Part shown: in pieces, positions 5,370 to 46,737 of the stretch
Numbering within the stretch: the first letter of the stretch is position 1
Layout: each line of letters opens with the position of its first letter
Virus record (IMG/VR): IMGVR_UViG_3300028837_000933
Span: 57,821 to 121,820 of that record
Strand: one strand, 5' to 3'
Length of the DNA: 64,000 nt
Origin: a virus
Translations under genes and position numbers: made by a program
Notes under the pieces: model-generated
Database searches by the model: none
The model's input: only the letters and a program-made list of their open reading frames with translations
Told to the model about the DNA's origin: nothing

Positions 5370-5658
5370 TGCAATTGCCTCCTGGTCTCATAAAAGCCGG
5401 GAAGGGACGGACGCAGATTTGGGGGGGTGATGTGCCCGTTGGTTAGGCGGGCGGTGAGCGATCACCCCAACAAACTTTCGTTCGTGGGAATAGGAGTTTG
5501 ACACATGCCCGATAGAGATCCACTAGACCCGGTTCCTCTATCGGCCACCACTGGCTGCTGGAGAACCGAATCCGTACAGGTCATGCAGGAGACTCCAGCG
5601 AGCCAGTGCGGCTATGGGTTTGTATGCCATCCATCCCTATCCCGGCAACGGTCCGTCA
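5370..5658. other. Intergenic region with two stem-loops after the capsid gene
   Basis: No gene supported. One stem pairs GGGGTGAT (5424-5431) with ATCACCCC (5461-5468) and has an inner GCCCG/CGGGC stem. A second pairs CCGATAGAG (5509-5517) with CTCTATCGG (5536-5544). They are suited to capping or terminating the capsid transcript. Confidence 0.45.
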
Positions 5659-7509
5659 CTAGGACAGCACCACGTGGGCAGCCTTCTCCGGAACCGGGGA
5701 ATCCGATCCGTTGAACTCTTCCACGTAGTACTGCTCCGCGGCCACCAGCTTCGCATTGGCTGTCGTCCCGTAGGGGCCGAACAGCTGCCAGGGCTGCAAG
5801 ACTCGGTGATGCACGATTTCGCGGTTGCCAACCACGGCATACCCATCGCGCATCTCGGTGGACTGAATGAGCGGCAGGCCCTTGATCCTGCCGATGAAGC
5901 CGTTGGCGTTGAGCATCGCATCGGCGCGAGTGCCAGCGGCGGTGAAGTTGTCCCAGTTGGACGCGACTTCGGCCTGGGTGGCGGACATGAGGATGAAGGT
6001 GGGGTCGTAGTAGCGGTTGATGATGCGGACCTTGGCTGTCCCCAGCCGTTCGATCAGGACATCGATGGTCTCGCTCGAGGAATCCCAGGCAAGGCCGGCG
6101 TTCGCGGGCACCTGGAGGGCGGCCGCGATGGCCATGTCGATCAGTTGCGCGTCGACGTACCTCTGGCACCGGCGGGTCATCATGGCGATGGTGCGGGCGG
6201 TGGCGTCATAGCCGAGCGCGGCGCGGGACAGAACCACGGCCTCGCGGCTGATCTGCATGGCCAGCCTGTCGGCAGCCATGGAGAGCAGCACGAAGTCGAG
6301 CGTCCCCTTGCCTCGTTCGATCTCGCCAAGCTCACCCTTGCGGATGGCCCGGTAGGAGTAGTCCAGGTCCAGGTCGGTCGAATCCCCAATGGTGCCGCCA
6401 TTGGCCGCGGTGATGGTCCAGAGCTTGCCGTTCCGGGCATCCACCACGTAGTCATCGCCCTCGACGAACGGCGTGCCGCCGCCGCCAGGCTCGAGAACCC
6501 ACGTCCCAGGCACAATCGCCTGATTCGCGAGGTCAAACCAGTCGCCCTCGGCCGATGTGACAGTCTCATCGGTGACGGCAACGGTTTCACCCGTCTCGCC
6601 GGCATACGCCTCGTAGTAGACCCGCGTGTCGGCATCGCTGGTCATCTGGACATCGAAGATGCTCGTTGCAACGAGATCGGGAACCGCCTCGGCAACGATG
6701 GCTCGCATCACGGTGTAGGGAAGGTTGAGGTCGGAAACCTGCTCAGCCTCCTCGAAGAGCCGCGCCTCCTGCACCAGATGGTGCTTGTAGCGCTGGTCGA
6801 AGGCCGCCATGTACTGCTGGGCGAAGCGGCTATTGAGCGGGTTGCTCGCGTCTTCCTTGCTGCGATCCTCGAAGTAGCCGTGCCTCACGCACGACTCGAC
6901 AAGCAGCATGGCGGGCTTGGTGAACGCCGGGGCACCGGTCACGCCCTCGATCACGGGACCAAGGACCTCGATCACGGTGGGATCGCCCATCGCTTGTCGC
7001 TTCAGCTGGGACAGCATCTGGTCCGCAAAGGATCTGCGGGCCTTGATGAGTGTCTTGGCTTCGTCGATGCTCTTGGGCTCGCCGGCCATGACCTCTTCCT
7101 GGACCTGCGTCCGCACCCACTCGGGGTAGTTGGCGATGCCCTTGATCTCGCTCTCCACGTACTCCGCCACCTCTCGGGCAGATGACTCGGTCTCCAGCTG
7201 GGCCAGCCTCTCGGCCTGCTCCTGGAGCGCGTTTTCCAGGGAATCGGTCTCTCCCAGATCCAGCTGCTTGCGCAGGGAAGCCTGGGCTTCATCGATGATT
7301 CGCTGGCGATCCGCCTGCTCTTCCTCGATCTCGCGCTCGGCTTCCATGCGGGCAAGCTCGCGCTCGCGGTCGCTCTGGGCCACAATCGACTCGACCAAGT
7401 CGGGTCGCTGGGCCGCGATCTCGGCCGTGGTCAGTTCGGTGACGGGCACCGCGCCTTCCGGGGCCTCTGGTTCTTTCGGTGTCTGTTCCTGGCCTTTCTT
7501 CGGTGGCAT
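5659..7509 (-). CDS. Nested scaffold-capsid product from an internal start
   Basis: Within the protease-capsid gene, codon 309 is ATG (7509) and is preceded on the minus strand by GAGGAGGG (7520-7527), ten bases upstream. The resulting 616-residue protein (MPPKKGQEQ...) would hold scaffold and capsid but no protease. This mirrors the nested protease/scaffold pair of lambda (C and Nu3) and would let capsid be made in excess over protease. Use of the start is inferred from the ribosome site only. Confidence 0.55.
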   Translation of the reverse strand: MPPKKGQEQTPKEPEAPEGAVPVTELTTAEIAAQRPDLVESIVAQSDRERELARMEAEREIEEEQADRQRIIDEAQASLRKQLDLGETDSLENALQEQAERLAQLETESSAREVAEYVESEIKGIANYPEWVRTQVQEEVMAGEPKSIDEAKTLIKARRSFADQMLSQLKRQAMGDPTVIEVLGPVIEGVTGAPAFTKPAMLLVESCVRHGYFEDRSKEDASNPLNSRFAQQYMAAFDQRYKHHLVQEARLFEEAEQVSDLNLPYTVMRAIVAEAVPDLVATSIFDVQMTSDADTRVYYEAYAGETGETVAVTDETVTSAEGDWFDLANQAIVPGTWVLEPGGGGTPFVEGDDYVVDARNGKLWTITAANGGTIGDSTDLDLDYSYRAIRKGELGEIERGKGTLDFVLLSMAADRLAMQISREAVVLSRAALGYDATARTIAMMTRRCQRYVDAQLIDMAIAAALQVPANAGLAWDSSSETIDVLIERLGTAKVRIINRYYDPTFILMSATQAEVASNWDNFTAAGTRADAMLNANGFIGRIKGLPLIQSTEMRDGYAVVGNREIVHHRVLQPWQLFGPYGTTANAKLVAAEQYYVEEFNGSDSPVPEKAAHVVLS

Positions 7510-8433
7510 AGCTGCAATTCCCTCCTCTTGGGATGTCTGACTTTCTGCGTAAGTGACAGCCGCCTGGGTGTCACTCGGTTCCAGTACGAGATCGTAACCG
7601 GTGATGATGAGTGCCTCCACCACCTCGATAACTTCTCCGCTTTTCTGCTCTTCGCTGACGGAGGTGCCGTATCCGCGCTGGCTGATGCCAGGTTTCACGC
7701 CACCTTTCATCTGGGCACGGAGATCGTGCCCGGCCTGCGTCCCCAGCAGCTTGCCCTCAACGGTCACCTGCTTCCCATCGAACAAGCACTCTTCCCAGTT
7801 GACCACCACCTCATTGAGAAATGGTCGCCTCGTGGGCTTCATGCTCGGATGCTCGACTTCGCCAAGCAACTGCTGAACGCGGCCCTGTCCCGCGCTTTCT
7901 CCCAGATGATCTTGGACTATAGCGACCGCCTCGGCCAAAATCCTACGCTTGTACAGCGTACCGTTGCTGGTCACTTTGTCGGCTGTGATGCCGATGCCAC
8001 GAATCGCCCAGGGGCCGTCTGGACTGGCCCCATCACTCTCCACGAGTTCGACCGTACCCGATAGTTCGGCAAACCGCGTGGCCTGGTCCTTCTCTTCACG
8101 GAGCAGCCTCTCCGCCAGAGGTCGGGCCTTGTAGGCCAGTTCGACTACTTCCCAATCCTCTGTTTCAACAAAGACAAAGGTGTCATCTTCCGCCTCAAAA
8201 CCCACCTTCCAAAATGACTCGATGGGTAGGCAACGGCAGAAGACGATGACGTAATCCTCGAAGACTTCGTGGACCCATCGCCCCCAGTCCTGGTTCAGCC
8301 ACTCCTCGAACTGGACACGGAAAGCTCGCTCCACACTTCTCAGCGTGTGATTCAGTGATCCTCGCACCTCGGAGATTTCTTTGCCCCGAGCGATCTTCCG
8401 CACTTCCATTTGCTCGCTGTTTGGGTCTGGCAT
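5659..8433 (-). CDS. Prohead protease - scaffold - major capsid fusion protein
   Basis: 924 residues that combine three usually separate functions. Residues ~140-285 resemble prohead maturation proteases: the GEVEHP motif supplies a catalytic His (H195) and GISQRG the catalytic Ser (S251), as in the T4 gp21-like group. Residues ~310-440 are Glu/Gln/Arg-rich and predicted coiled coil, typical of scaffold. Residues ~480-924 look like an HK97-fold capsid protein, with a long alpha-rich N-arm, a beta-rich middle and a RIINRYYDPTFILMS segment. ATG 8433 has a strong AAGGAGG site. The protease would cut itself and the scaffold out during maturation. An internal start with its own ribosome site (7509) would yield scaffold-capsid without protease. 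Domain limits are approximate. Confidence 0.8.
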   Translation of the reverse strand: MPDPNSEQMEVRKIARGKEISEVRGSLNHTLRSVERAFRVQFEEWLNQDWGRWVHEVFEDYVIVFCRCLPIESFWKVGFEAEDDTFVFVETEDWEVVELAYKARPLAERLLREEKDQATRFAELSGTVELVESDGASPDGPWAIRGIGITADKVTSNGTLYKRRILAEAVAIVQDHLGESAGQGRVQQLLGEVEHPSMKPTRRPFLNEVVVNWEECLFDGKQVTVEGKLLGTQAGHDLRAQMKGGVKPGISQRGYGTSVSEEQKSGEVIEVVEALIITGYDLVLEPSDTQAAVTYAESQTSQEEGIAAMPPKKGQEQTPKEPEAPEGAVPVTELTTAEIAAQRPDLVESIVAQSDRERELARMEAEREIEEEQADRQRIIDEAQASLRKQLDLGETDSLENALQEQAERLAQLETESSAREVAEYVESEIKGIANYPEWVRTQVQEEVMAGEPKSIDEAKTLIKARRSFADQMLSQLKRQAMGDPTVIEVLGPVIEGVTGAPAFTKPAMLLVESCVRHGYFEDRSKEDASNPLNSRFAQQYMAAFDQRYKHHLVQEARLFEEAEQVSDLNLPYTVMRAIVAEAVPDLVATSIFDVQMTSDADTRVYYEAYAGETGETVAVTDETVTSAEGDWFDLANQAIVPGTWVLEPGGGGTPFVEGDDYVVDARNGKLWTITAANGGTIGDSTDLDLDYSYRAIRKGELGEIERGKGTLDFVLLSMAADRLAMQISREAVVLSRAALGYDATARTIAMMTRRCQRYVDAQLIDMAIAAALQVPANAGLAWDSSSETIDVLIERLGTAKVRIINRYYDPTFILMSATQAEVASNWDNFTAAGTRADAMLNANGFIGRIKGLPLIQSTEMRDGYAVVGNREIVHHRVLQPWQLFGPYGTTANAKLVAAEQYYVEEFNGSDSPVPEKAAHVVLS

Positions 8434-13128: not shown

Positions 13129-14112
13129 CTAGGTGGGTAGCGCAAGCGGCTCCCTCATCGGCTCATCCACGTCATGTTCTTCAAGCTCGCCCTTCTCCAG
13201 CCGGATCTGGGCTAGGCGCTCCATGGCCAGTCTGGCCATCTCAACCACGGCGGTCGGGATCGAAAAAATCTCACACTCATCCCGGACGGTTTGCAGGGCC
13301 TTCCGCCAGGAATCGTAAAAGTCACGGTTCGCCATGTACATGCGATCCACATCGACACTCGGTACAATGGCCTCGGCGGCGGCCACGAAATCATCGTGCT
13401 GGGATGAAAGGAACATCAGCAGCACAACGCGGGAATTGCCAAGAAGGTTCACGTCTGGCGGATTGAACTTGACCGGGTCCGGTATCAGATCGATGATGCG
13501 CGGGTCAACGTAGGCCGCAAACTGCTCGGCCACATCGGTGATCGCCCCGAACACCCTGGCCACCAGTTCGGGATCATCCGAGCCGGCGATAGTGTTGTGG
13601 CTCAGCTGCTTGGAGTACATGGCGCTCTTGCTCAAGTCCTCGTAGAGCAGCACAAGCACCACCTTCACGCCAGCCGCCCGGCCTGCGCGGACGCGGTGGT
13701 TCCCGCTGACTATCTCGATCCCCTTATCCGTCCGTACGCACAACGGCACCGACTCCAGACCACCCACGGTGGAGATATTGTCGACCAGCTGGTCGAACGT
13801 TTTCTTGGTCATGGAGCGCGGGTTCACATCCTGTTCGATCAACTCGCTGATGTTCGCCACGAACAGACTCAAATGCTCAGGGAGCACCATCTTGCTCAAT
13901 TCCTTGAGCATGGAGTTGATCTGTTCGCGGTCGCCGTGAAGCATCTCGGGGTTGATCACCCCCCGCATGATCGACTCGAAGCCGTCTACATCCTCGGGGC
14001 TTACGCCGGCTGCGTCTGTGGCTTGCGCTTCTTGCGGCCCCTGCGCTTCCTCCCGCGCCTCGACTTCTTCGGTGTCTCCTGCTTCGGCCTCTGCTTGAAC
14101 TTCTGATACCAT
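13129..14112 (-). CDS. ParB/sulfiredoxin-fold protein
   Basis: 327 residues. Residues ~105-165 form a ParB-N/Srx-like domain: SVPLCVRTDKGIEIVSGNHR then VRAGRAAGVKVV, with the GNHR-RA motif that replaces GERR-RA in many phage members. The first 45 residues are Glu/Ala-rich. ATG 14112 has a strong GGGAGGAG site; because of this start the gene overlaps the previous one by 112 bp in another frame. Phage ParB-like proteins of this kind act as nucleases or as nucleotide-binding partners of DNA-modifying enzymes; here the neighbours favour the latter, by inference. Confidence 0.7.
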   Translation of the reverse strand: MVSEVQAEAEAGDTEEVEAREEAQGPQEAQATDAAGVSPEDVDGFESIMRGVINPEMLHGDREQINSMLKELSKMVLPEHLSLFVANISELIEQDVNPRSMTKKTFDQLVDNISTVGGLESVPLCVRTDKGIEIVSGNHRVRAGRAAGVKVVLVLLYEDLSKSAMYSKQLSHNTIAGSDDPELVARVFGAITDVAEQFAAYVDPRIIDLIPDPVKFNPPDVNLLGNSRVVLLMFLSSQHDDFVAAAEAIVPSVDVDRMYMANRDFYDSWRKALQTVRDECEIFSIPTAVVEMARLAMERLAQIRLEKGELEEHDVDEPMREPLALPT

Positions 14113-15851: not shown

Positions 15852-15931
15852 ACCACCAGTATACCGCATCCTTCCCGATTTGTCAACTTCTACACGGTTC
15901 CCTTGGCAATCGCAAAGGTATACACAGATGG

Positions 15932-15960
15932 TTGACGGATGGCACGATTTGTGATAAGAT
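15932..15960 (+). promoter_or_regulatory. Sigma-70-type promoter for HTH-repeat gene
   Basis: TTGACG (15932-15937), 17-nt spacer, TAAGAT (15955-15960), 18 bp before the 15978 start codon with its AAAGGAGG site. It is divergent from the tRNA and structural block. Confidence 0.6.
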
Positions 15961-15977: not shown

Positions 15978-16436
15978 ATGTCACCAAGGGATAAGGTGTA
16001 CGGCGACCCCATCACGTACAATGGCAAGACGCATACGCTAGAAGAATGGGCCAAGCGGTTGAACACCACCTATTCCGTGCTCGCTCACCGCCTGCGTAGG
16101 GGCTGGTCTGTCAATCGCACGCTCTCCACCCCACCTGAAAAAGTCGTGAAGCGTATGCGATTCGATGGACGCAACATGACGTACCAGGAATGGGAGTACG
16201 AGACAGGCATCAAGCAACGTAGGCTCCGACGTCGACGGGCGGCAGGATGGACAGAGGAACAGACCGTCACAACCCGCGTCCGCAAATACGGCCGACAAAT
16301 CAACTACGCGGGCCAGAATAAGACACTCCGCGAGTGGGCAGAAACGCTCGGCATCAACTACAACACGCTCTACTACCGCCTGTACAGGCTCGGACTCCCG
16401 ATAGAAGAAGCGTTCACAGCACCCCTCAGACGCTAA
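15978..16436 (+). CDS. Triple HTH-repeat DNA-binding protein
   Basis: 152 residues made of three ~50-residue units. Each has Y-G/R-G-(K/R/Q)-(T/N/M)-(H/T/K)-T-L/Y-x-EW-A-x-x-(L/T), then an Arg-rich recognition-like helix and a W-(S/T)-x-(N/E) turn. The same unit ends the HNH-like protein at 50,336 and forms the stub at 51,207. Such modules are common as DNA-binding tails of homing endonucleases and phage regulators. Alone and in triplicate it may bind a repeated site; the 10-bp repeat field starts just downstream. Start ATG 15978 was preferred to an upstream ATG because of its ribosome site. Confidence 0.65.
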   Translation: MSPRDKVYGDPITYNGKTHTLEEWAKRLNTTYSVLAHRLRRGWSVNRTLSTPPEKVVKRMRFDGRNMTYQEWEYETGIKQRRLRRRRAAGWTEEQTVTTRVRKYGRQINYAGQNKTLREWAETLGINYNTLYYRLYRLGLPIEEAFTAPLRR

Positions 16437-16690: not shown

Positions 16691-18980
16691 GTCGAAATGA
16701 CCCAAATGGCGAGAAACGCACAGAATCCACCAAAAAATGCGCGAAACCGAGTGAACTCGCTTGAACTCCACAGAAGCCGGATGAACTCGACAGAACCCGA
16801 GGGGAACCCGGTGAACCGTGAGCAAACCGAGTGAACTGTGAGCAAATCGAGTGAAAGTGTAGGAAACCGTAGCAAACGTGATGAAACCCATAGAAGCGCG
16901 ATCAAACCGCGTGATCAGCTCTGAAACCATCGCAAACCGTATAGAACCAGGGGCAACCGTAGCAAAGCCGGAGAAACGTGTTGAAACCGTAGAAACCCGA
17001 GTGGAATCGTGTAGCCGGCTATAGATAGGGTAGAGACCGACAGAAACCGCATGAACCCCGTTGAAAGCCTCTCTTCCTCATCGAACCCGTGAGAAATCGT
17101 AGGAAACCGCATAGAAGCCCAGCAAACCGAGAGACCAGGCCGGCAACCGTGAGGAACCGTGAGAACTGGTAGCATAGTGACAGGAACCGTAGGAAAACGG
17201 GAGAGAATAGAGCAACCCGTGAGTAACTCACCGAACCCGTGAGAAACCACATAGAAGCACAGTGAACCGGGAGAAACCGAGTGGCCGGCGACAGTATGCC
17301 CGGAAACCGTGAGAGAATGGCAAGAATGGCAGCAAACCGGGAGAAAGCGACAGAAAGCACAGCAGACGGCCGGATCTCCCTGGAAACCGTGCGGAATCGA
17401 TAGGCCGGCACAGCTATCGTGTGAACCCGGTTGGAATCGATAGCAATCGTGTAGTATACGTGCATATCGACAGGAAGCAGGAGCAACCAGTAGCCGGCGA
17501 CAGTAACCCAGTGACCGCGTGCGCAATCGGCAGGACTCATAGCAAACCAACAGTAACCCAGTGCAATCACTAGGCCGGCGCAGCTATCGAGTGACCACGG
17601 TTGAACCTCTGCAATTCCGATAGCAACCGCAAAGAAACCAGAGACCCCAAGAGCAACCAGCAGCAAGCGACAGGCGGCCGGAGAAACCCGCAAACCACGC
17701 GAGAAACCGAGAGACCACGCCCCAAACCCACAGGAACCGCGAGCAATCGAGTGGCCGGCAACGATACGCGTGTATATCGTCAACTATAGTGTGATGGTGA
17801 GTGAGAGTGAGTGAGGGTGAGTGAGACCAGCAACAAGCGACAGGTCTCCAGTGACCAGGTAGCAAACCGTGAGCAATCGTGTGAACTGGTAGCAAACCGA
17901 GCGGGACGGTGAGAAAGCGACAGGCCCCGCGAGCAATCGAGTGGCCGGCCGCGAAACCGTGAGACCAGCTCAGGAACAGTGGGATAACGACAGGTCAAGC
18001 CAGCAACGCAACAAAAGAGGCAGGAACCGAGAGAACCCGGCAACCCGAGCACCAACTCGCCCAAACCCGTCACCAACCGTCAATCCACGTGTGACCGCGT
18101 GAGAGTAGCCTTGCCAACCGTCACGAACCGTCAACCTAATAGGGTCAATCGGCCTAATTTGAGTGAAACCGTATAGAACCGAGAGAACCGTCGACAGTGA
18201 AACCGTGTGAAAGCAAACCGTGAGAAACCGTGTGAAACGTGAGAGAGAGAAACCGTGTGAAACGTGAGCGCCAAAACCCGCGAAAACAAACCGTGTGAAA
18301 CCGTGTGAAACGTGAGAGAGTGAAACCGTGTGAAACGTGAGAACCAAAACACTCCAAAACCGAACCGCGAGAAACCGTGAGAAACCGTGTGAACCTAGAC
18401 CCCTAGAAACCGTGTGAAACCCATAGCAAACCATAGTAGAATCGTGAGAAACCGTGTGAGAACCAAACCCGGTCAAACCGAACCACCAAAACCCGCGAAA
18501 ACAAACCGTGTGAAACCGTGTGAAACGTTAGTAGTAGAAACCGTGTGAAACGTGAGAACCAAAACACCCCGGTCCAAACCGTGAGAAACCGTGTGAAACG
18601 TGAGAGAGAGAAACCGTGTGAAACGTAACCACCAAAACACCCAAAAAGCAAACCGTGTGAAACCGTGTGAAACCCAGTGAACCGTTTTTCATCTTCTGCC
18701 GTCGCCTGAAACCGTGAGAAACCGTGTGAAACCGTCAACCAGGTTGAAACCGTGAGAAACCGTGAGAAACGCAACCCGCGGACCTCTCACCCAGAAACCG
18801 CGAGAAACCGTGAGAAACCGATCACGGTCCCTGGTTGGCATTGAAACCGTGTGAAACGATAGCAACCCAGCTCAAACCGTATAGATCCATACAGTCAGAC
18901 CAGTTTTTTTCCCGCTAGTTATGGGTCAAGTTATTGAAACCGTGTGAAACCCATAGCAAACCCTAGGCAAACCATATCAA
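16691..18980. repeat. Field of degenerate tandem 10-bp repeats (GAAACCGTGW)
   Basis: About 230 units. Between 16,691 and ~18,060 nearly every successive 10 bases carries an AA(A)CC-type core in the same register, with no net insertion or deletion over more than 1 kb. GCCGGC blocks (17014, 17284, 17404, 17494, 17574, 17754, 17944) also sit at multiples of ten. From ~18,170 to 18,780 units become near-identical GAAACCGTGT/GAAACCGTGA with occasional slips. Ten is not a multiple of three, so long minus-strand frames here (HTVSHGF-like) are artefacts. Could be an origin, a partition or packaging site, or a long non-coding RNA. Confidence 0.85.
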
Positions 18981-19581
18981 AACCGATTGAAAAACGGTCC
19001 CAACGCGTTTTTGGAGTATCAGCCGGGTTGGTGGTATAATTCTCGCGTAACCTATAGGCCAACGGGACGCACCAACCGAACCCTTGACCCTCTCCCTACT
19101 CCATCCCAACCCGAACCACTATCACCCAACCCGAACCACTATCACGCGGGACCGTTGACCGAACCGGAACCGGAAAAGACCACCAACCGCAACCACCGCA
19201 ACCACCAACCCAACCCGCACCACGTCAACCGTACATTTCCAACGGTCCAGAAACCGAGAATATAACCTAATCCCTACCAACCCGAACCCGAACCGGAACC
19301 CTAAACGGTTGGATTATACCTCTCCCTCTCCCTAGTCAGTTTCTATAGCTAGAATACCCGCACCTCTCCAACGTCAGTGGAACCCAAAACGCGGAAACGC
19401 GTTCCCAGTCGCGGAAAACAAACCAACAAACCCGCACCCACAAAAACGGTGGTGATAGGCAAAAATCACAAAAAAATCGGGACAATCAGCCGGAACACTC
19501 GTCAACTCACGTGCGGCATTTTTCCCGAACCGGGACCTTGACGGGTATAATTCTCTCATAACTAGGGTCTCTCCCTTGAAT
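18981..19581. other. AC-rich low-complexity spacer with duplicated TATAAT sites
   Basis: No convincing gene. Rich in CCAACC/GAACC words (19,070-19,310). Two similar -10-like boxes, GGTATAATTCTC at 19,032 and 19,546, each end in TAAC or ATAAC after a few bases; -35 boxes are poor. The second lies just before the first cassette and could drive the array. Confidence 0.5.
19541..19570 (+). promoter_or_regulatory. Possible promoter for cassette array family A
   Basis: TATAAT at 19546-19551 upstream of the first hairpin module; no good -35 box at 16-18 nt. Supported only by its repetition at 19,032 and its position. Confidence 0.3.
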
Positions 19582-19720
19582 CACAATCGGGACGGTTGGC
19601 CTTTTCCGCGTTTCGCGGGAATTGCCAACGGTCCCTTTTGTGGTGAGAGACCCAACCGCGGAACCGTCCTATTGTGGGTCGGTTCGGTCGGGTTTCATCA
19701 CAAAAAGGGAGAGTGATACA
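19582..19720 (+). repeat. Cassette header A1 (double hairpin plus ribosome site)
   Basis: Outer stem CACAA/TTGTG, inner GGGAC/GTCCC, apical GTTGGC/GCCAAC with an extra CCGCG/CGCGG mini-hairpin; second hairpin uses AACCG and CGGTT arms; ends AAAAGGGAGAGTGATACA before ATG. Confidence 0.85.
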
Positions 19721-19834
19721 ATGGAGTTGGTGGAAATGTTGGTCAATATGCAACCCGCGTTTCAGATTCTTCTGGGTGCGTTCGTGTTGTTGGTGGTTGC
19801 GGTTTGTCTGGAGTTGGTTGGTATGATGCGATAG
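19721..19834 (+). CDS. Cassette protein 1: single-pass membrane peptide
   Basis: 37 residues; one hydrophobic helix spans roughly residues 13-33 (FQILLGAFVLLVVAVCLELV). The start is fixed by the conserved header (GGGAG, nine bases, ATG). Leu is mostly TTG here, unlike the GC-rich cassettes further right. Function unknown; possibly an envelope-targeted effector. Confidence 0.65.
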   Translation: MELVEMLVNMQPAFQILLGAFVLLVVAVCLELVGMMR

Positions 19835-19867
19835 ACCAACCACCAAGACCCACAATAGAATAGAACC

Positions 19868-19995
19868 GAGAGACCCACAATCGGGACGGTTGGCAATTGC
19901 CAACGGTCCCTTTTGTGGTGAGAGACCCAACCGCGGAACCGTCCTATTGTGGGTCGGTTCGGTCGGGTTTCATCACAAAAAGGGAGAGTGATACA
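19868..19995 (+). repeat. Cassette header A2
   Basis: Outer CCACAA/TTGTGG, inner GGGAC/GTCCC, apical GTTGGC AATT GCCAAC; second hairpin conserved; GGGAGAGTGATACA before ATG 19996. Confidence 0.85.
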
Positions 19996-20379
19996 ATGTC
20001 AGATTATAGGTTGTATTGTGAGATTGACGAAACGGTTTTGAGGGAGTTGGTTGCCAGTATTGAAACCGTGTCAATCCGCGTGCGTGCGGAACCCAACCCT
20101 ATTCTACAATCGTTGGTTCCACTGGAGATTGTGGAATTGTCGCGGGAACGTGCGTGGTTGACAATCCATCGGATACCCGCAACCGGAACCGTCAACCGGT
20201 ATAGTCCAGCCGTCAACGTGGACGTTCCCGGTTGGGTTGACGTGGATCGGTTGGGTTTGTTGGATTGTCTGGACGGTTGGGTCGGTTGCGGGATTGTAAC
20301 CCTTTTTTCCACTCACGATGGAATAGGGTATGCTTCTGACGGTTGTTTTGACGTGGACGTTTCCGCGGAAACGTATTGA
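19996..20379 (+). CDS. Cassette protein 2: hypothetical
   Basis: 127 residues, soluble, acidic, beta-rich look (WLTIHRIPATGTVN, VNVDVPGWVDVD). No family recognised. Start set by header A2. Codon choice is TTG/GTT/ATT-rich like the other family A cassettes. Ends 33 bp before the next CCACAATAGAATAGAACC lead-in. Confidence 0.6.
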   Translation: MSDYRLYCEIDETVLRELVASIETVSIRVRAEPNPILQSLVPLEIVELSRERAWLTIHRIPATGTVNRYSPAVNVDVPGWVDVDRLGLLDCLDGWVGCGIVTLFSTHDGIGYASDGCFDVDVSAETY

Positions 20380-20411
20380 CCAACCACCAAGACCCACAAT
20401 AGAATAGAACC

Positions 20412-20531
20412 GAGAGACCCACAATCGGGACGGTTGGCCTAGGCCAACGGTCCCTTTTGTGGTGAGAGACCCAACCGCGGAACCGTCCTATTGTGGGTCG
20501 GTTCGGTCGGGTTTCATCACAAAAAGGGAGA
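20412..20531 (+). repeat. Cassette header A3
   Basis: Same as A2 but with apical GTTGGCC TA GGCCAAC, an almost perfect palindrome; the usual TACAATG start is replaced by GGTTCG, leaving GTG as start. Confidence 0.85.
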
Positions 20532-20828
20532 GTGAGGTTCGACTACAATCCCGATGCTATTGGGACGTGTCAACGGGTTGGTATCTTGGTTCGACTATAC
20601 CACGATGGGAACCATTATCTTGTATATGACCGTTGGGACGTGATTGACGGTCAATCGCAACCCGTTTTTCTCGCGGGTTTTGGTGGTCCCGATTATACAA
20701 GAAACGGTCAATTGACCTATTCCAGTATTGACCGTGTGACGCGTTTTCTAATGCAAAACGCGGAAAAGGTTGAATTGTGGTTGACCCATCGGAACCATAT
20801 TGACGTCAAAACGCACGATCCACAATAG
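20532..20828 (+). CDS. Cassette protein 3: hypothetical, GTG start
   Basis: 98 residues from GTG 20532, which lies inside the GGGAGAGTG of the header because the usual ATG position is lost. Begins RFDYNPDAIGTC; aromatic-rich centre (YHDGNHYLVYDRWDV). Loss of the standard start may lower expression. No family recognised. Confidence 0.5.
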   Translation: MRFDYNPDAIGTCQRVGILVRLYHDGNHYLVYDRWDVIDGQSQPVFLAGFGGPDYTRNGQLTYSSIDRVTRFLMQNAEKVELWLTHRNHIDVKTHDPQ

Positions 20829-20837
20829 AATAGAACC

Positions 20838-20965
20838 GAGAGACCCACAATCGGGACGGTTGGCCTAGGCCAACCGTCCCTTTTGTGGTGAGAGACCCAA
20901 CCGCGGAACCGTCCTATTGTGGGTCGGTTCGGTCGGGTTTCATCACAAAAAGGGAGAGTGATACA
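20838..20965 (+). repeat. Cassette header A4
   Basis: Outer CCACAA/TTGTGG; inner GGGAC/GTCCC; apical GTTGGCC TA GGCCAAC, in which the base before GTCCC is C rather than G, removing the usual G-G opposition. Confidence 0.85.
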
Positions 20966-21403
20966 ATGTTGTTGGTTGACGTACAATTGACGGTTGTTTT
21001 CCGGAACCGTCCAGTGATGCGGGACGTGAACGGGAAACGTCAAAAAAACCGGGAACGGTCGACGGGTGATAGGCGTGGTATGATGCGGGATGAAACGTGG
21101 TTATGTCTCACGTGGAACCATGAAACCGGATTCAAGGTTGCGGATTGGACGTGGTATAGTGGTGGAAACAAACCCTATTGGAATAGGGAATATGGTTCCG
21201 GTGGTCAACGTGCGGTATATTCCTATAGGGACAATCGGTTGACCGCAAACCTAGATGACACGTGGATCACTGACTACCAACCACGAAAACCCATCACTGA
21301 CGCGTCAGTGAAACGGTTGTTTCGGGTTTGTCGAAAATACGGGATGATTGTCGCCTATCTTGGCGACGGTTGGTATACTGATTGTGGTGACGTTTCGATA
21401 TAA
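20966..21403 (+). CDS. Cassette protein 4: hypothetical
   Basis: 145 residues. Basic N-terminal third (NRPVMRDVNGKRQKNRERS), Trp/Tyr-rich middle (WLCLTWNHETGFKVADWTWY), and a C-terminal KRLFRVCRKYGMIVAYLGDGW. Net basic, so nucleic-acid binding is possible. Start set by header A4. No family recognised. Confidence 0.6.
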   Translation: MLLVDVQLTVVFRNRPVMRDVNGKRQKNRERSTGDRRGMMRDETWLCLTWNHETGFKVADWTWYSGGNKPYWNREYGSGGQRAVYSYRDNRLTANLDDTWITDYQPRKPITDASVKRLFRVCRKYGMIVAYLGDGWYTDCGDVSI

Positions 21404-21431
21404 CCCGCATCACTGACAATAGAATAGAACC

Positions 21432-21559
21432 GAGAGACCCACAATCGGGACGGTTGGCCTAGGCCAACGGTCCCTTTTGTGGTGAGAGACCCAACCGCGG
21501 AGCCGTCCTATTGTGGGTCGGTTCGGTCGGGTTTCATCACAAAAAGGGAGAGTGATACA
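21432..21559 (+). repeat. Cassette header A5
   Basis: Canonical family A module with apical GTTGGCC TA GGCCAAC and GGGAGAGTGATACA before the ATG. One base in the second hairpin differs from the neighbours (GCGGAGCC for GCGGAACC). Confidence 0.85.
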
Positions 21560-21934
21560 ATGTTGTTTTTCGTGGATCGTGATATACTCGCGGAAACGTT
21601 CTATGGTGACGAGTTGGACGATTGGGACCACGTACAGTGGAACGTCAAGTATTGGGGAGAGTTGGTTATAATTCCCTACGCAAGAATAGGTCAAAAACGT
21701 CCCGCGTTCGGTGCGTGGACTATCCCGGTTTCCGTTTTGGAGAGTGCGGAAAACGTCACAATCGATTGTATGGAGTTGGATACATTTTTGACCTATTCAA
21801 ACGTGGAAAAACCCGGTTCGGGTTGTATTGTCGCGTTCCGTTCCGATGGAGAGGGAACCGTTTCCGCGGGTATTGTACGTCAATCCCGATGGAAACCTAT
21901 ACAAGACCCGTTTTGGTTCGACATTTCACCATAG
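21560..21934 (+). CDS. Cassette protein 5: hypothetical
   Basis: 124 residues, acidic and aromatic (FFVDRDILAETFYGDELDDW). Strands VIIPYARIGQ and GCIVAFRSDGEG suggest a small beta-rich domain. No signal peptide or membrane segment. Start set by header A5. No family recognised. Confidence 0.6.
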   Translation: MLFFVDRDILAETFYGDELDDWDHVQWNVKYWGELVIIPYARIGQKRPAFGAWTIPVSVLESAENVTIDCMELDTFLTYSNVEKPGSGCIVAFRSDGEGTVSAGIVRQSRWKPIQDPFWFDISP

Positions 21935-21959
21935 CACGCACCCACAATAGAATAGAACC

Positions 21960-22083
21960 GAGAGACCCACAATCGGGACGGTTGGCCTAGGCCAACGGTC
22001 CCTTTTGTGGTGAGAGACCCAACCGCGGAACCGTCCTATTGTGGGTCGGTTCGGTCGGGTTTCATCACAAAAAGGGAGAGTGA
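21960..22083 (+). repeat. Cassette header A6
   Basis: Complete double hairpin; the sequence after GGGAGAGTGA diverges (GACGGTCC) so the start moves to 22096. Confidence 0.8.
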
Positions 22084-22095
22084 GACGGTCCAAAA

Positions 22096-22248
22096 ATGAA
22101 ACCGGTGCCGGATACGCTATTTTTCCATCGTTCCGCGATTGACGGTCCCAAAAGGAACGGGACCGAACCCGCAACCGTTGACGCGGAAAACCCGCATCGG
22201 TTGAAACCCGTGCCGGATACGCTATTTTTCCATCGTTCCGCGGGTTGA
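22096..22248 (+). CDS. Cassette protein 6: peptide with an internal duplicated motif
   Basis: 50 residues, in which KPVPDTLFFHRSA occurs twice (near residues 2-14 and 37-49) separated by a Pro/Asn/Glu-rich linker. The duplication is also visible in the DNA as a 33-bp direct repeat. The start is 12 nt further from the ribosome site than usual. The frame ends in TGA just before the next lead-in. Could instead be a non-coding remnant carrying a repeat. Confidence 0.4.
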   Translation: MKPVPDTLFFHRSAIDGPKRNGTEPATVDAENPHRLKPVPDTLFFHRSAG

Positions 22249-22280
22249 CCAACCACCAAGACCCACAATAGAATAGAACC

Positions 22281-22340
22281 GAGAGACCCACAATCGGGAC
22301 GGTTGGCCTAGGCCAACGGTCCCTTTTGTGGTGAGAGACC
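22281..22340 (+). repeat. Truncated cassette header A7
   Basis: Only the first hairpin (apical GTTGGCC TA GGCCAAC) is intact; the second is replaced by CCAACC-rich sequence and no ribosome site or ORF follows. Confidence 0.75.
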
Positions 22341-22400
22341 CAACCCAACCAACCACGATCCACCAACCCAACCGCGGGAACCGTTGACGGGTTGACCAAC

Positions 22401-22549
22401 GGGACCCAACCGCACGCGGGACCCTTGACCCTTTTTCCGGTCGGGACCCAACCGCACGCGGGACCCTTGACCCTTTTTCCGGTCGGGAACCCAACCGCAC
22501 GCGGGAACCCTTGACCCTTTTTCCGGTCGGGACCCAACCGCACGCGGGG
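22401..22549. repeat. 42-bp tandem repeat, 3.5 copies
   Basis: Units begin at 22401, 22443, 22485 and 22529 (GGGACCCAACCGCACG... CTTTTTCCGGTC). The third copy is 44 bp. Each contains CCCTTTTTCC, close to the 3' arm of the hairpin modules. Frames through it (PDRKKGQGSRV-like on the minus strand) are repeat artefacts. Confidence 0.8.
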
Positions 22550-22924
22550 AATCCGCGTCAATTCGGTTGAACGCACCCACAACACAAAAACGGGTTACAC
22601 CGTGCAAAAAATCCCGCACATTTCCGGTCAATTGACCCTTTTTTGGTGAGACCAACCAACCAAAAACAACCGGGTTGACCGATTTTTGGGTCAATCGTTC
22701 CGGTTCCTAGGTCAACGGTCCCTTTTTTGGCCAACCTGGTCGGTTTCCAACCACAACCCTTGGAGCTGGTTCCAACCCATAGCGCGAGCGTGAGGGACTT
22801 ACACCTGGTGGAATCGGGCTGGCGTTTGGAGCCGCCAGCCAAAACGGCGCTAGATTCTACACCAACCGCGGAGCGCGTGAGCGCACATCTGGCGCATCTT
22901 TTCCCACGTTTGGAGTCGATAGCA
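22550..22924. other. Junction between low-GC and GC-rich cassette arrays
   Basis: No gene I can defend. Up to about 22,740 the sequence keeps the AACC/TTGG style of family A; from about 22,760 it becomes GCTGG/GAGC-rich like family B. Degenerate hairpin arms (GGTCAACGGTCCCTTTTTTGGCC) suggest a decayed cassette. A plus-strand frame over 22,727-22,999 runs through header B1 and is doubtful. Confidence 0.5.
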
Positions 22925-40186: not shown

Positions 40187-41185
40187 ATGCAGCCTAACGC
40201 AAAGAAAGTCAACCATGTGCCCTGCGCGGAGATCATCGCTGGCGACAACGACCGTCAGGAGTTCGAGACCCAAGCGCTACAGGCGCTTGCGGAGAGCATC
40301 GCGGATCAGGGCTTGATCCAGCCTATCACCGTCCGCCCCCTGTCTTTCTGTCCAGAGTGCAACACTCGCCGCGCCATTCTGGACGATCAGACCTGGGTGG
40401 ACTGTCCCGCGTGCGGCGCGTCAACGATCTATATGTACGAGATTGTCGCCGGCGAGCGCCGTTTCCGAGCCGTTTCCATCGTGCTCAAATGGCAACGAAT
40501 CGCCGCGTTCATCGTCCCTATGTCGGACGAGGATACAGACGGCGTGATGCTGGCCGAGAACATCGCGAGGGCGGATCTGTTGCCCATCGAAGAGGCCAAG
40601 GCGTACAGGAAACGCATGGACAAGCACGGCTGGTCCAAGACCGAGACAGCGAGGCGGTCCAACGTGAGCGAGGGCATCGTGAGCGGTCGGCTCAAGTTGC
40701 TTGAGCTTACCGAACCGATTCAGCGGATGGTCAATCAGGGAGATTTGCCCATCGCGTTCGGTGAGGCCATGTCGGGACTGAACTCCGACCGCCAACAGAT
40801 GGTGCTCACCTGGCTTGGCAAGATGAACAGTCGTCCGAACGTGGACACGTTCAAGGCGTACTGCACAGAGCTTCTGATCCAGCAGCAACAGGCATCGATG
40901 TTCGATATGACGGCGCTCTTGTCGCCCCAAGTGATGACCATCGTCCAGGCCAACGGTGGCAAGCTCGAAGAGATTCTACCGCGCCGCAACGACTTGCCGG
41001 AATTGCCCCGCAAGATGGGTGGCCTGGCTCGCGTCCTGGACGAGTACATCGTTGAACTGCTCACCGCCGACCCCGATGCCGCCCTGGTTCTGATGGACTT
41101 TTGGAGCAAGCTACTTGGTGCCAACTACGCCAAGATGGCACCGCTCGAGAGCCAGACCGTCAAGATTCTGGCCGGGAAAGCGTAG
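40187..41185 (+). CDS. ParB-family partition or DNA-binding protein with zinc-ribbon insertion
   Basis: 332 residues. ParB N-terminal domain with LIQPITVRPL (43-52), GERRFRA (89-95, the CTP-contacting box) and MLAENIARADLLPIEEAKAY (the ENxxR-xDL-PxE box). An HTH follows (GWSKTETARRSNVSEGIVSG). Between the first strand and GERRFRA about 30 residues are inserted with CPEC (55-58) and CPAC (73-76), a zinc ribbon not usual in ParB. No ParA is seen in the window, so plasmid-like partition is not shown; it could organise DNA or regulate transcription. Own promoter P3. Confidence 0.85.
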   Translation: MQPNAKKVNHVPCAEIIAGDNDRQEFETQALQALAESIADQGLIQPITVRPLSFCPECNTRRAILDDQTWVDCPACGASTIYMYEIVAGERRFRAVSIVLKWQRIAAFIVPMSDEDTDGVMLAENIARADLLPIEEAKAYRKRMDKHGWSKTETARRSNVSEGIVSGRLKLLELTEPIQRMVNQGDLPIAFGEAMSGLNSDRQQMVLTWLGKMNSRPNVDTFKAYCTELLIQQQQASMFDMTALLSPQVMTIVQANGGKLEEILPRRNDLPELPRKMGGLARVLDEYIVELLTADPDAALVLMDFWSKLLGANYAKMAPLESQTVKILAGKA

Positions 41186-46595: not shown

Positions 46596-46649
46596 CCCCG
46601 CAAGCGTGCCATAAACGCGCCATAAACGCGACAAACGCGCCATCCAGCT

Positions 46650-46690: not shown

Positions 46691-46737
46691 TTCGTGTGGC
46701 CCACAACACGGCACGAAGGCACTTCTTCCTTTGTTCG

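Follow-up and report, generated by a model that had tools for sequence, protein, structure and literature searches.

The genome of an environmental phage carries a non-coding array of 135 contiguous decamers that holds a single 10-bp register without a break over 1.35 kb, with all units in one orientation, at the boundary of two diverging gene arms. The units have diverged extensively by substitution while their spacing has remained intact, and the simplest reading of this pattern is that insertions and deletions have been removed by selection, making spacing a functional property of the array. We propose, with a probability of about 45%, that this DNA is a cis-acting scaffold for a DNA-binding protein that assembles head to tail into a filament, in the mode of BldC, Xis or ParR, perhaps in the service of genome organization or segregation.

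The array resides in a 64,000-nucleotide stretch of DNA, hereafter the window, corresponding to positions 57,821-121,820 of a virus record totaling 121,820 bp (IMGVR_UViG_3300028837_000933). The two ends of this record overlap by 340 bp with 95% identity; the phage genome is thus probably close to complete, with circular permutation and strain variation.

Two adjacent repeat arrays of different character

The 10-bp autocorrelation peak expected from the initial annotation of this DNA is present. Identity at lag 10 is 0.398 in the region 16,691-18,060, compared to 0.276 +/- 0.012 for dinucleotide shuffles (maximum of 300 shuffles, 0.309). Moreover, identity is 0.39-0.44 at every tested multiple of 10 up to lag 1,100, while neighboring lags yield values of 0.20-0.34. 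Scored with a leave-one-out matrix, the array gives +4.0 bits per unit when read in phase, against -1.9 bits or worse at the nine other offsets, and the same phase is best in 130 of 130 overlapping 50-bp blocks. The consensus is composed of a GAAACCG core followed by three loose bases, and each unit carries only ~4.2 bits of information.

A 2.3-kb field in exact 10-bp register had been described originally. This description holds for ~16,693-18,042, corresponding to 1.35 kb, whereas past ~18,050 the phase wanders. Two objects had been merged into a single repeat field: a left array that is in register, and a right array in which the register is lost (Table 1).

Table 1. Coordinates of the arrays and associated features. 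Positions are those of the window, except for the last row, where they are those of the contig named.
Feature	Position	Strand	Description
Promoter-like site TTGACA-17-TATACT	15858-15886	-	Upstream of left-arm genes; consensus match only
Promoter-like site TTGACG-17-TAAGAT	15932-15960	+	Upstream of HTH gene; consensus match only
Gene for protein with three similar HTH-like repeats	15978-16436	+	Adjoins array and reads towards it
Left array	16693-18042	+	135 contiguous decamers, consensus GAAACCGNNN, 10-bp register unbroken
GCCGGC blocks	17014, 17139, 17284, 17404, 17493, 17574, 17754, 17944 (within 17014-17949)		Six of eight share one phase
Transition	18043-18165	+	AACCGTCA-like units, register lost
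Right array	18166-18990	+	GAAACCGTG units as doublets 10 bp apart within a 73-bp higher-order repeat; units share no register
AAGCG-core arrays of contig G021	128-233, 2045-2275, 50312-50625, 52155-52300, 64833-65057		Intergenic

The right array is not the nearly pure GAAACCGTGT/A tract that was initially reported, but a higher-order repeat of doublets, for which TRF gives a period of 73 bp, 6.4 copies and 71% matches. Its units are near-identical, and doublets with a 10-bp separation are set apart by other distances. The 10-bp doublet is the commonest spacing to be kept, accounting for 23 of 50 nearest-neighbor gaps. On the strength of these repeats, the right array does look like a recent duplication.

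Within the left array, no super-period of two to seven units is evident (and hence none of three units), lag 30 is not favored over lag 20 or 40, and no inverted repeats of 10 bp or longer with arms within 120 bp are present. The array exhibits strong strand asymmetry, with T at ~12%. The sequence GCCGGC occurs eight times where 0.6 occurrences are expected. Only seven copies had been noted before, all supposedly separated by multiples of ten; the actual gaps are 270, 120, 89, 81, 180 and 190, with the copy at 17,493 one base out and the eighth copy, at 17,139, in another phase.

Neither array is coding, in agreement with the initial annotation: open frames do not exceed those of shuffled sequences in length, whichever strand is read. 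The longest exact internal repeats measure only 23 bp in the left array and 52 bp in the right array, which makes misassembly unlikely.

Substitutions without register-breaking indels

Among the 135 units of the left array, 124 decamers differ from one another, and connecting these in a minimum spanning tree takes 253 substitutions. The absence of any register-breaking indel against a background of at least 253 substitutions suggests that selection acts on spacing. Under neutral decay, the probability of finding no such indel is ~6 × 10⁻³ at 2% indels per substitution and ~3 × 10⁻⁶ at 5%, values that hinge on the assumed indel ratio and on the array having started as a true repeat. The earlier suggestion of selection for a binding lattice thus gains support, as the unbroken register is best explained by a constraint on spacing.

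The same cannot be said of slippage expansion, which had been invoked for the entire field. Recent slippage would make neighboring units alike, but in the left array a unit resembles its immediate neighbor no more than it resembles units farther away (z = -1.1 at distance one). Slippage is therefore not supported as the source of the left array, and the proposal fits only the right array, where a higher-order repeat is found.

The main alternative, possible though rather doubtful, is that the left array is a fossil minisatellite, in which a decamer expanded by slippage or unequal exchange, subsequently decayed by substitution and has no function, with the right array as a younger relative. Slippage and unequal exchange both add or remove whole units, so both keep the register, and the right array clearly has been duplicated. 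Left-array units separated by 2-10 units also are slightly more similar than expected by chance, a weak effect, and a second phage described below has many period-10 arrays with no need of a shared motif. However, the lack of register-breaking indels is improbable unless indels are far rarer than 2% of substitutions, and nearest neighbors are no closer to each other in sequence than units far apart. Furthermore, the fact that a consensus is still common to most units after such divergence suggests constraint. Even if it proves to be only a fossil minisatellite, the left array would remain an unusually clear example of DNA that has changed by substitution but not by indels.

Under the filament scaffold reading, the left array would serve as a double-stranded DNA lattice in which each helical turn offers one of ~135 weak, directional binding sites, and along which a DNA-binding protein would assemble head to tail to form a cooperative filament. 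A protein that binds in one direction, takes one site per turn and touches its neighbor would be expected to leave weak sites, fixed spacing and a single orientation. The sites are degenerate (~4 bits each), and recognition would rest on the fixed 10-bp spacing and on the polymer rather than on a single site, which would explain why substitutions are tolerated and indels are not. The near-identical sites of the right array, arranged in 10-bp doublets, may represent a younger and higher-affinity part, and a filament located at the arm boundary would most likely organize, anchor or segregate the phage genome.

The register persists through all 135 units and at every multiple of 10 tested to 1,100 bp, which argues for such a scaffold, as do the divergence of the units, their single orientation, the lack of inverted repeats noted above and the retention of the 10-bp doublet as the commonest spacing in the right array. 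Several observations argue against it, among them the absence of matches to ParA, RHH_1, HTH_17 and MerR_1 and of a homologous array that might show conservation (see below). Moreover, the spacing is exactly 10.0 bp and not 10.5 bp, so that a filament protein would have to impose extra twist on its DNA or track a face that turns slowly around the helix. Should the 1.35 kb indeed be conserved in spacing rather than in sequence, the array preserves the geometry of a DNA-coating protein and offers a bait for its recovery. If the proposal is true, it becomes testable whether phages that lack ParA use filament-forming proteins for genome organization or segregation.

Candidate binding proteins and genome context

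The protein with three HTH-like repeats that is encoded next to the array is our first candidate for its ligand. A model of this protein built from the single sequence is of low confidence (pLDDT 57.5), with a beta-hairpin and helices in each repeat, and gave no significant match when compared with solved structures. Related sequence occurs at two further places in the phage genome. A protein with three HTH repeats that reads three units would favor a 30-bp super-period, which is not seen in the left array, although binding at any offset would mask one.

Searches for the partner proteins of known systems gave mostly negative results. The RHH_1 family, representing RHH-type ParR, has no match at E <= 1 in the phage, while all 14 control genomes matched. 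The search for ParM gave no match in the phage and none in the control either, and ORFs of 290-440 amino acids were scanned without a ParM-like Pfam match. Winged HTH proteins of the MerR/Xis type were sought among the phage proteins, where neither HTH_17 nor MerR_1 has a match; a protein of this type may instead be supplied by the host. No ParA exceeds the threshold in the phage genome, and the one weak sub-threshold match falls inside the DnaB helicase gene.

ParB-like proteins are present. One with ParB_N and HTH_ParB domains is encoded at 40,187, 22 kb from the array, and a further one is encoded outside the window. A third ParB-like gene (13,129-14,112) is a member of a DAM-like, GNAT-like and ParB-like trio that recurs in four other phage contigs and, judged by its gene content, looks like a system for DNA modification rather than partition. 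A C5-cytosine methyltransferase gene, additional to the DAM-like gene near the array, is located outside the window at genome position 5,513-6,775.

Genes of the left arm are mostly on the minus strand and include those for the prohead protease, the terminase and the DAM-like trio. Right-arm genes, among them those for an initiator-like protein, DnaB helicase and a sliding clamp, are mostly on the plus strand. This position and the neighboring sequence elements bear on several other explanations for the array.

One such explanation, which we consider quite improbable, is that the array functions as a transcribed element. RNA read from the promoter of the HTH gene would be long, A-rich and U-poor, and its 10-nt repeat would bind protein as a sponge or scaffold. 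The promoter-like site at 15,932, the absence of plus-strand terminator-like sites from the HTH gene to 19,889 and the strand asymmetry noted above are consistent with this arrangement. However, the RNA folding energy shows no consistent departure from that of shuffles for either strand, and an Rfam search with the array returned no family match. Also, we know of no RNA-binding protein that keeps a 10-nt register for longer than 1 kb.

Somewhat less probable still is an iteron replication origin, as had been suggested previously, in which an initiator would bind the repeats and open the A-rich right part. The array is located where the arms diverge, near the cumulative GC skew minimum, and is locally low in GC (50% versus ~60%). 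GC skew tracks gene orientation, however, and is not independent evidence. Origin iterons are expected beside an initiator gene, whereas the initiator-like gene here, whose initiator match is weak, lies at 46,731 in the region 46.6-48.4 kb. This gene, upstream of dnaB, has three ~11-bp repeats of its own just upstream (direct repeat GCCATAAACGC, ~3.5 copies, 46,608-46,643), and from this placement these repeats are likely a better candidate for the replication origin than the array. To our knowledge, 135 iterons would be far beyond the number in known origins.

There is only a slight chance that the array is a packaging (pac) site or a decoy for a host DNA-binding protein. The gene for the terminase large subunit is 4.6 kb away and the overlapping contig ends resemble those of a circularly permuted genome, but no terminase small subunit is recognized next to the array, and we know of nothing that needs 135 register-locked sites. 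The least probable explanation is a ParABS partition centromere to which the ParB encoded at 40,187 would bind: the two ParB proteins that prompted this idea are accompanied neither by ParA, nor by a palindromic parS-like site for an HTH ParB in the array (a site with three mismatches at 21,104 has an equivalent in 11 of 100 shuffles), nor by an integrase in the phage genome that would hint at lysogeny.

Several other features of this genome were recorded. The sequence TTAA is absent from the whole record (121,820 bp), compared to 38 occurrences expected from trinucleotide counts, which probably reflects avoidance of a restriction or similar target. Approximately 20 right-arm genes between 19,868 and 32,914 are preceded by a similar leader, comprising a GGGAC...GGTCCCTTTT hairpin and a purine-rich ribosome-binding site, that looks like a start-associated cassette element; leaders near 20-22 kb carry a promoter-like site as well. 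The block at 18,990-22,700 is sharply unlike the rest in composition (AGC/GCT 11 versus 140 expected, CAG/CTG 23 versus 145), lacks GCGC, GGGC and CAGG entirely, and may be a recent acquisition. The leader element is common to this block and its neighbors. A 42-bp tandem repeat (3.5 copies, 97% matches) is found at 22,400-22,548. On the minus strand at 5,659-8,433, a single frame of 924 amino acids has matches to a prohead protease (Peptidase_S77) as well as to a tail protein carrying an Ig-like domain, and is possibly a fusion.

Decamer arrays in other phages

A homologous array that could show conservation was not found in phage and plasmid records or in viral contigs. Comparison of the array DNA with phage and plasmid records revealed nothing similar, with one chance-level 50-bp match only. 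Exact GAAACCGTGW repeats do not occur in viral contigs, and the six matches in genome contigs have two to four units each and form no array. No relevant description of phage decamer arrays was found in the full text of the open literature. Single-query protein searches recovered no relatives of the terminase or the HTH protein and four distant relatives of the ParB-like protein. A terminase profile search identified relatives with 45-51% identity, whose available DNA contains no 10-bp array. A candidate mini-array at genome position 27,593 was dropped, as its score is within the shuffle range.

Three AAACCG motifs at 10-bp spacing occur at 76 loci in the scanned viral contigs. Triples of this motif in viral contigs show no general preference for 10 bp: among the matches listed, five have a spacing of 10 and six a spacing of 11, while spacings of 9 and 12, which are probably coding, dominate.

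Two contigs deserve separate mention, with the proviso that both are special cases from a biased search and that the first was picked up by the AAACCG query itself. Contig G021 (IMGVR_UViG_3300023210_000001) has five intergenic arrays of 10-30 decamers each, with an AAGCG core and a strict 10-bp register. As in the left array the register is strict, and AAGCG weakly resembles AAACCG in the same orientation (r = 0.65 against the left-array matrix, column-permutation P = 0.026). In contrast to the left array, the G021 arrays are shorter, more homogeneous and distributed over five places. The two phages have no genes in common, the sole match between them being the array itself, and searches of phage and plasmid records with the G021 array recovered no similar DNA. 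Chi-like recombination hot-spot sites were considered for these arrays but presumably would not account for the register. Two of the five arrays end just before a terminator-like hairpin.

Contig G020 (IMGVR_UViG_3300003873_000002), a 154-kb phage with 30% GC, contains 47 non-coding tandem arrays of period 10. Its arrays mostly have different decamers and often lie just after a stop codon, and a further 16 have period 11 and eight have period 9. These examples cut both ways: G021 favors a shared binding lattice, and G020 favors a mutational habit. At present we think it possible but unlikely that kilobase-long register-locked decamer lattices that seed a helical filament constitute a new class of phage cis-element, conserved in spacing more than in sequence and present in at least two unrelated phages including G021.

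Comparison with known repeat systems

Tandem repeats in Borgs resemble the arrays described here in being non-coding, in residing in a mobile genome and in having unit lengths that often are not divisible by three (PMC9879509). However, the Borg repeats are described as recently formed (PMC9879509), whereas the left array is divergent and bears no sign of recent expansion.

A close parallel in geometry is provided by proteins of the BldC and Xis type. BldC protomers line up head to tail along 9-bp direct repeats that are spaced by one turn (PMC5859096), and RdfS and Xis form filaments on DNA (PMC11963761). Like the left array, the sites of these proteins are degenerate, directional direct repeats spaced by approximately one helical turn, and they share the variable number and head-to-tail binding that we propose here (PMC5859096, PMC11963761). 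BldC sites differ in having few 9-bp repeats with AT-rich cores, compared to the 135 units of the left array, which are exactly 10 bp long and have GAAACCG as their core. The left array has the repeat geometry of this type, but its genome is without a MerR_1 or HTH_17 protein.

ParR binds direct repeats of 10 or 11 bp (PMC9426499), and the type II parC centromeres of R1 and pB171 are composed of 11-bp and 10-bp direct repeats, respectively (PMC9426499, PMC5016525). These repeats are contiguous and non-coding, as in the left array, and the protein that recognizes them assembles into a higher-order helix (PMC9426499, PMC5016525). Whereas parC has about ten repeats beside parM and parR, the left array has 135 and is found in a genome with no RHH_1 protein.

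In the parS sites of pSM19035, contiguous heptads are bound by an RHH ParB (PMC9499535). These sites are short, degenerate and contiguous, as are the units of the left array, and in parS contiguity matters for function (PMC9499535). Their 7-bp units are present in 7-10 copies of mixed orientation, compared to 135 copies of 10 bp in one orientation. Although the tested partner proteins are missing, the array could work like the sites of BldC, RdfS/Xis, ParR or pSM19035 by analogy, and if it is a filament scaffold its length would greatly exceed that of the direct-repeat sites bound by BldC, ParR and the pSM19035 ParB.
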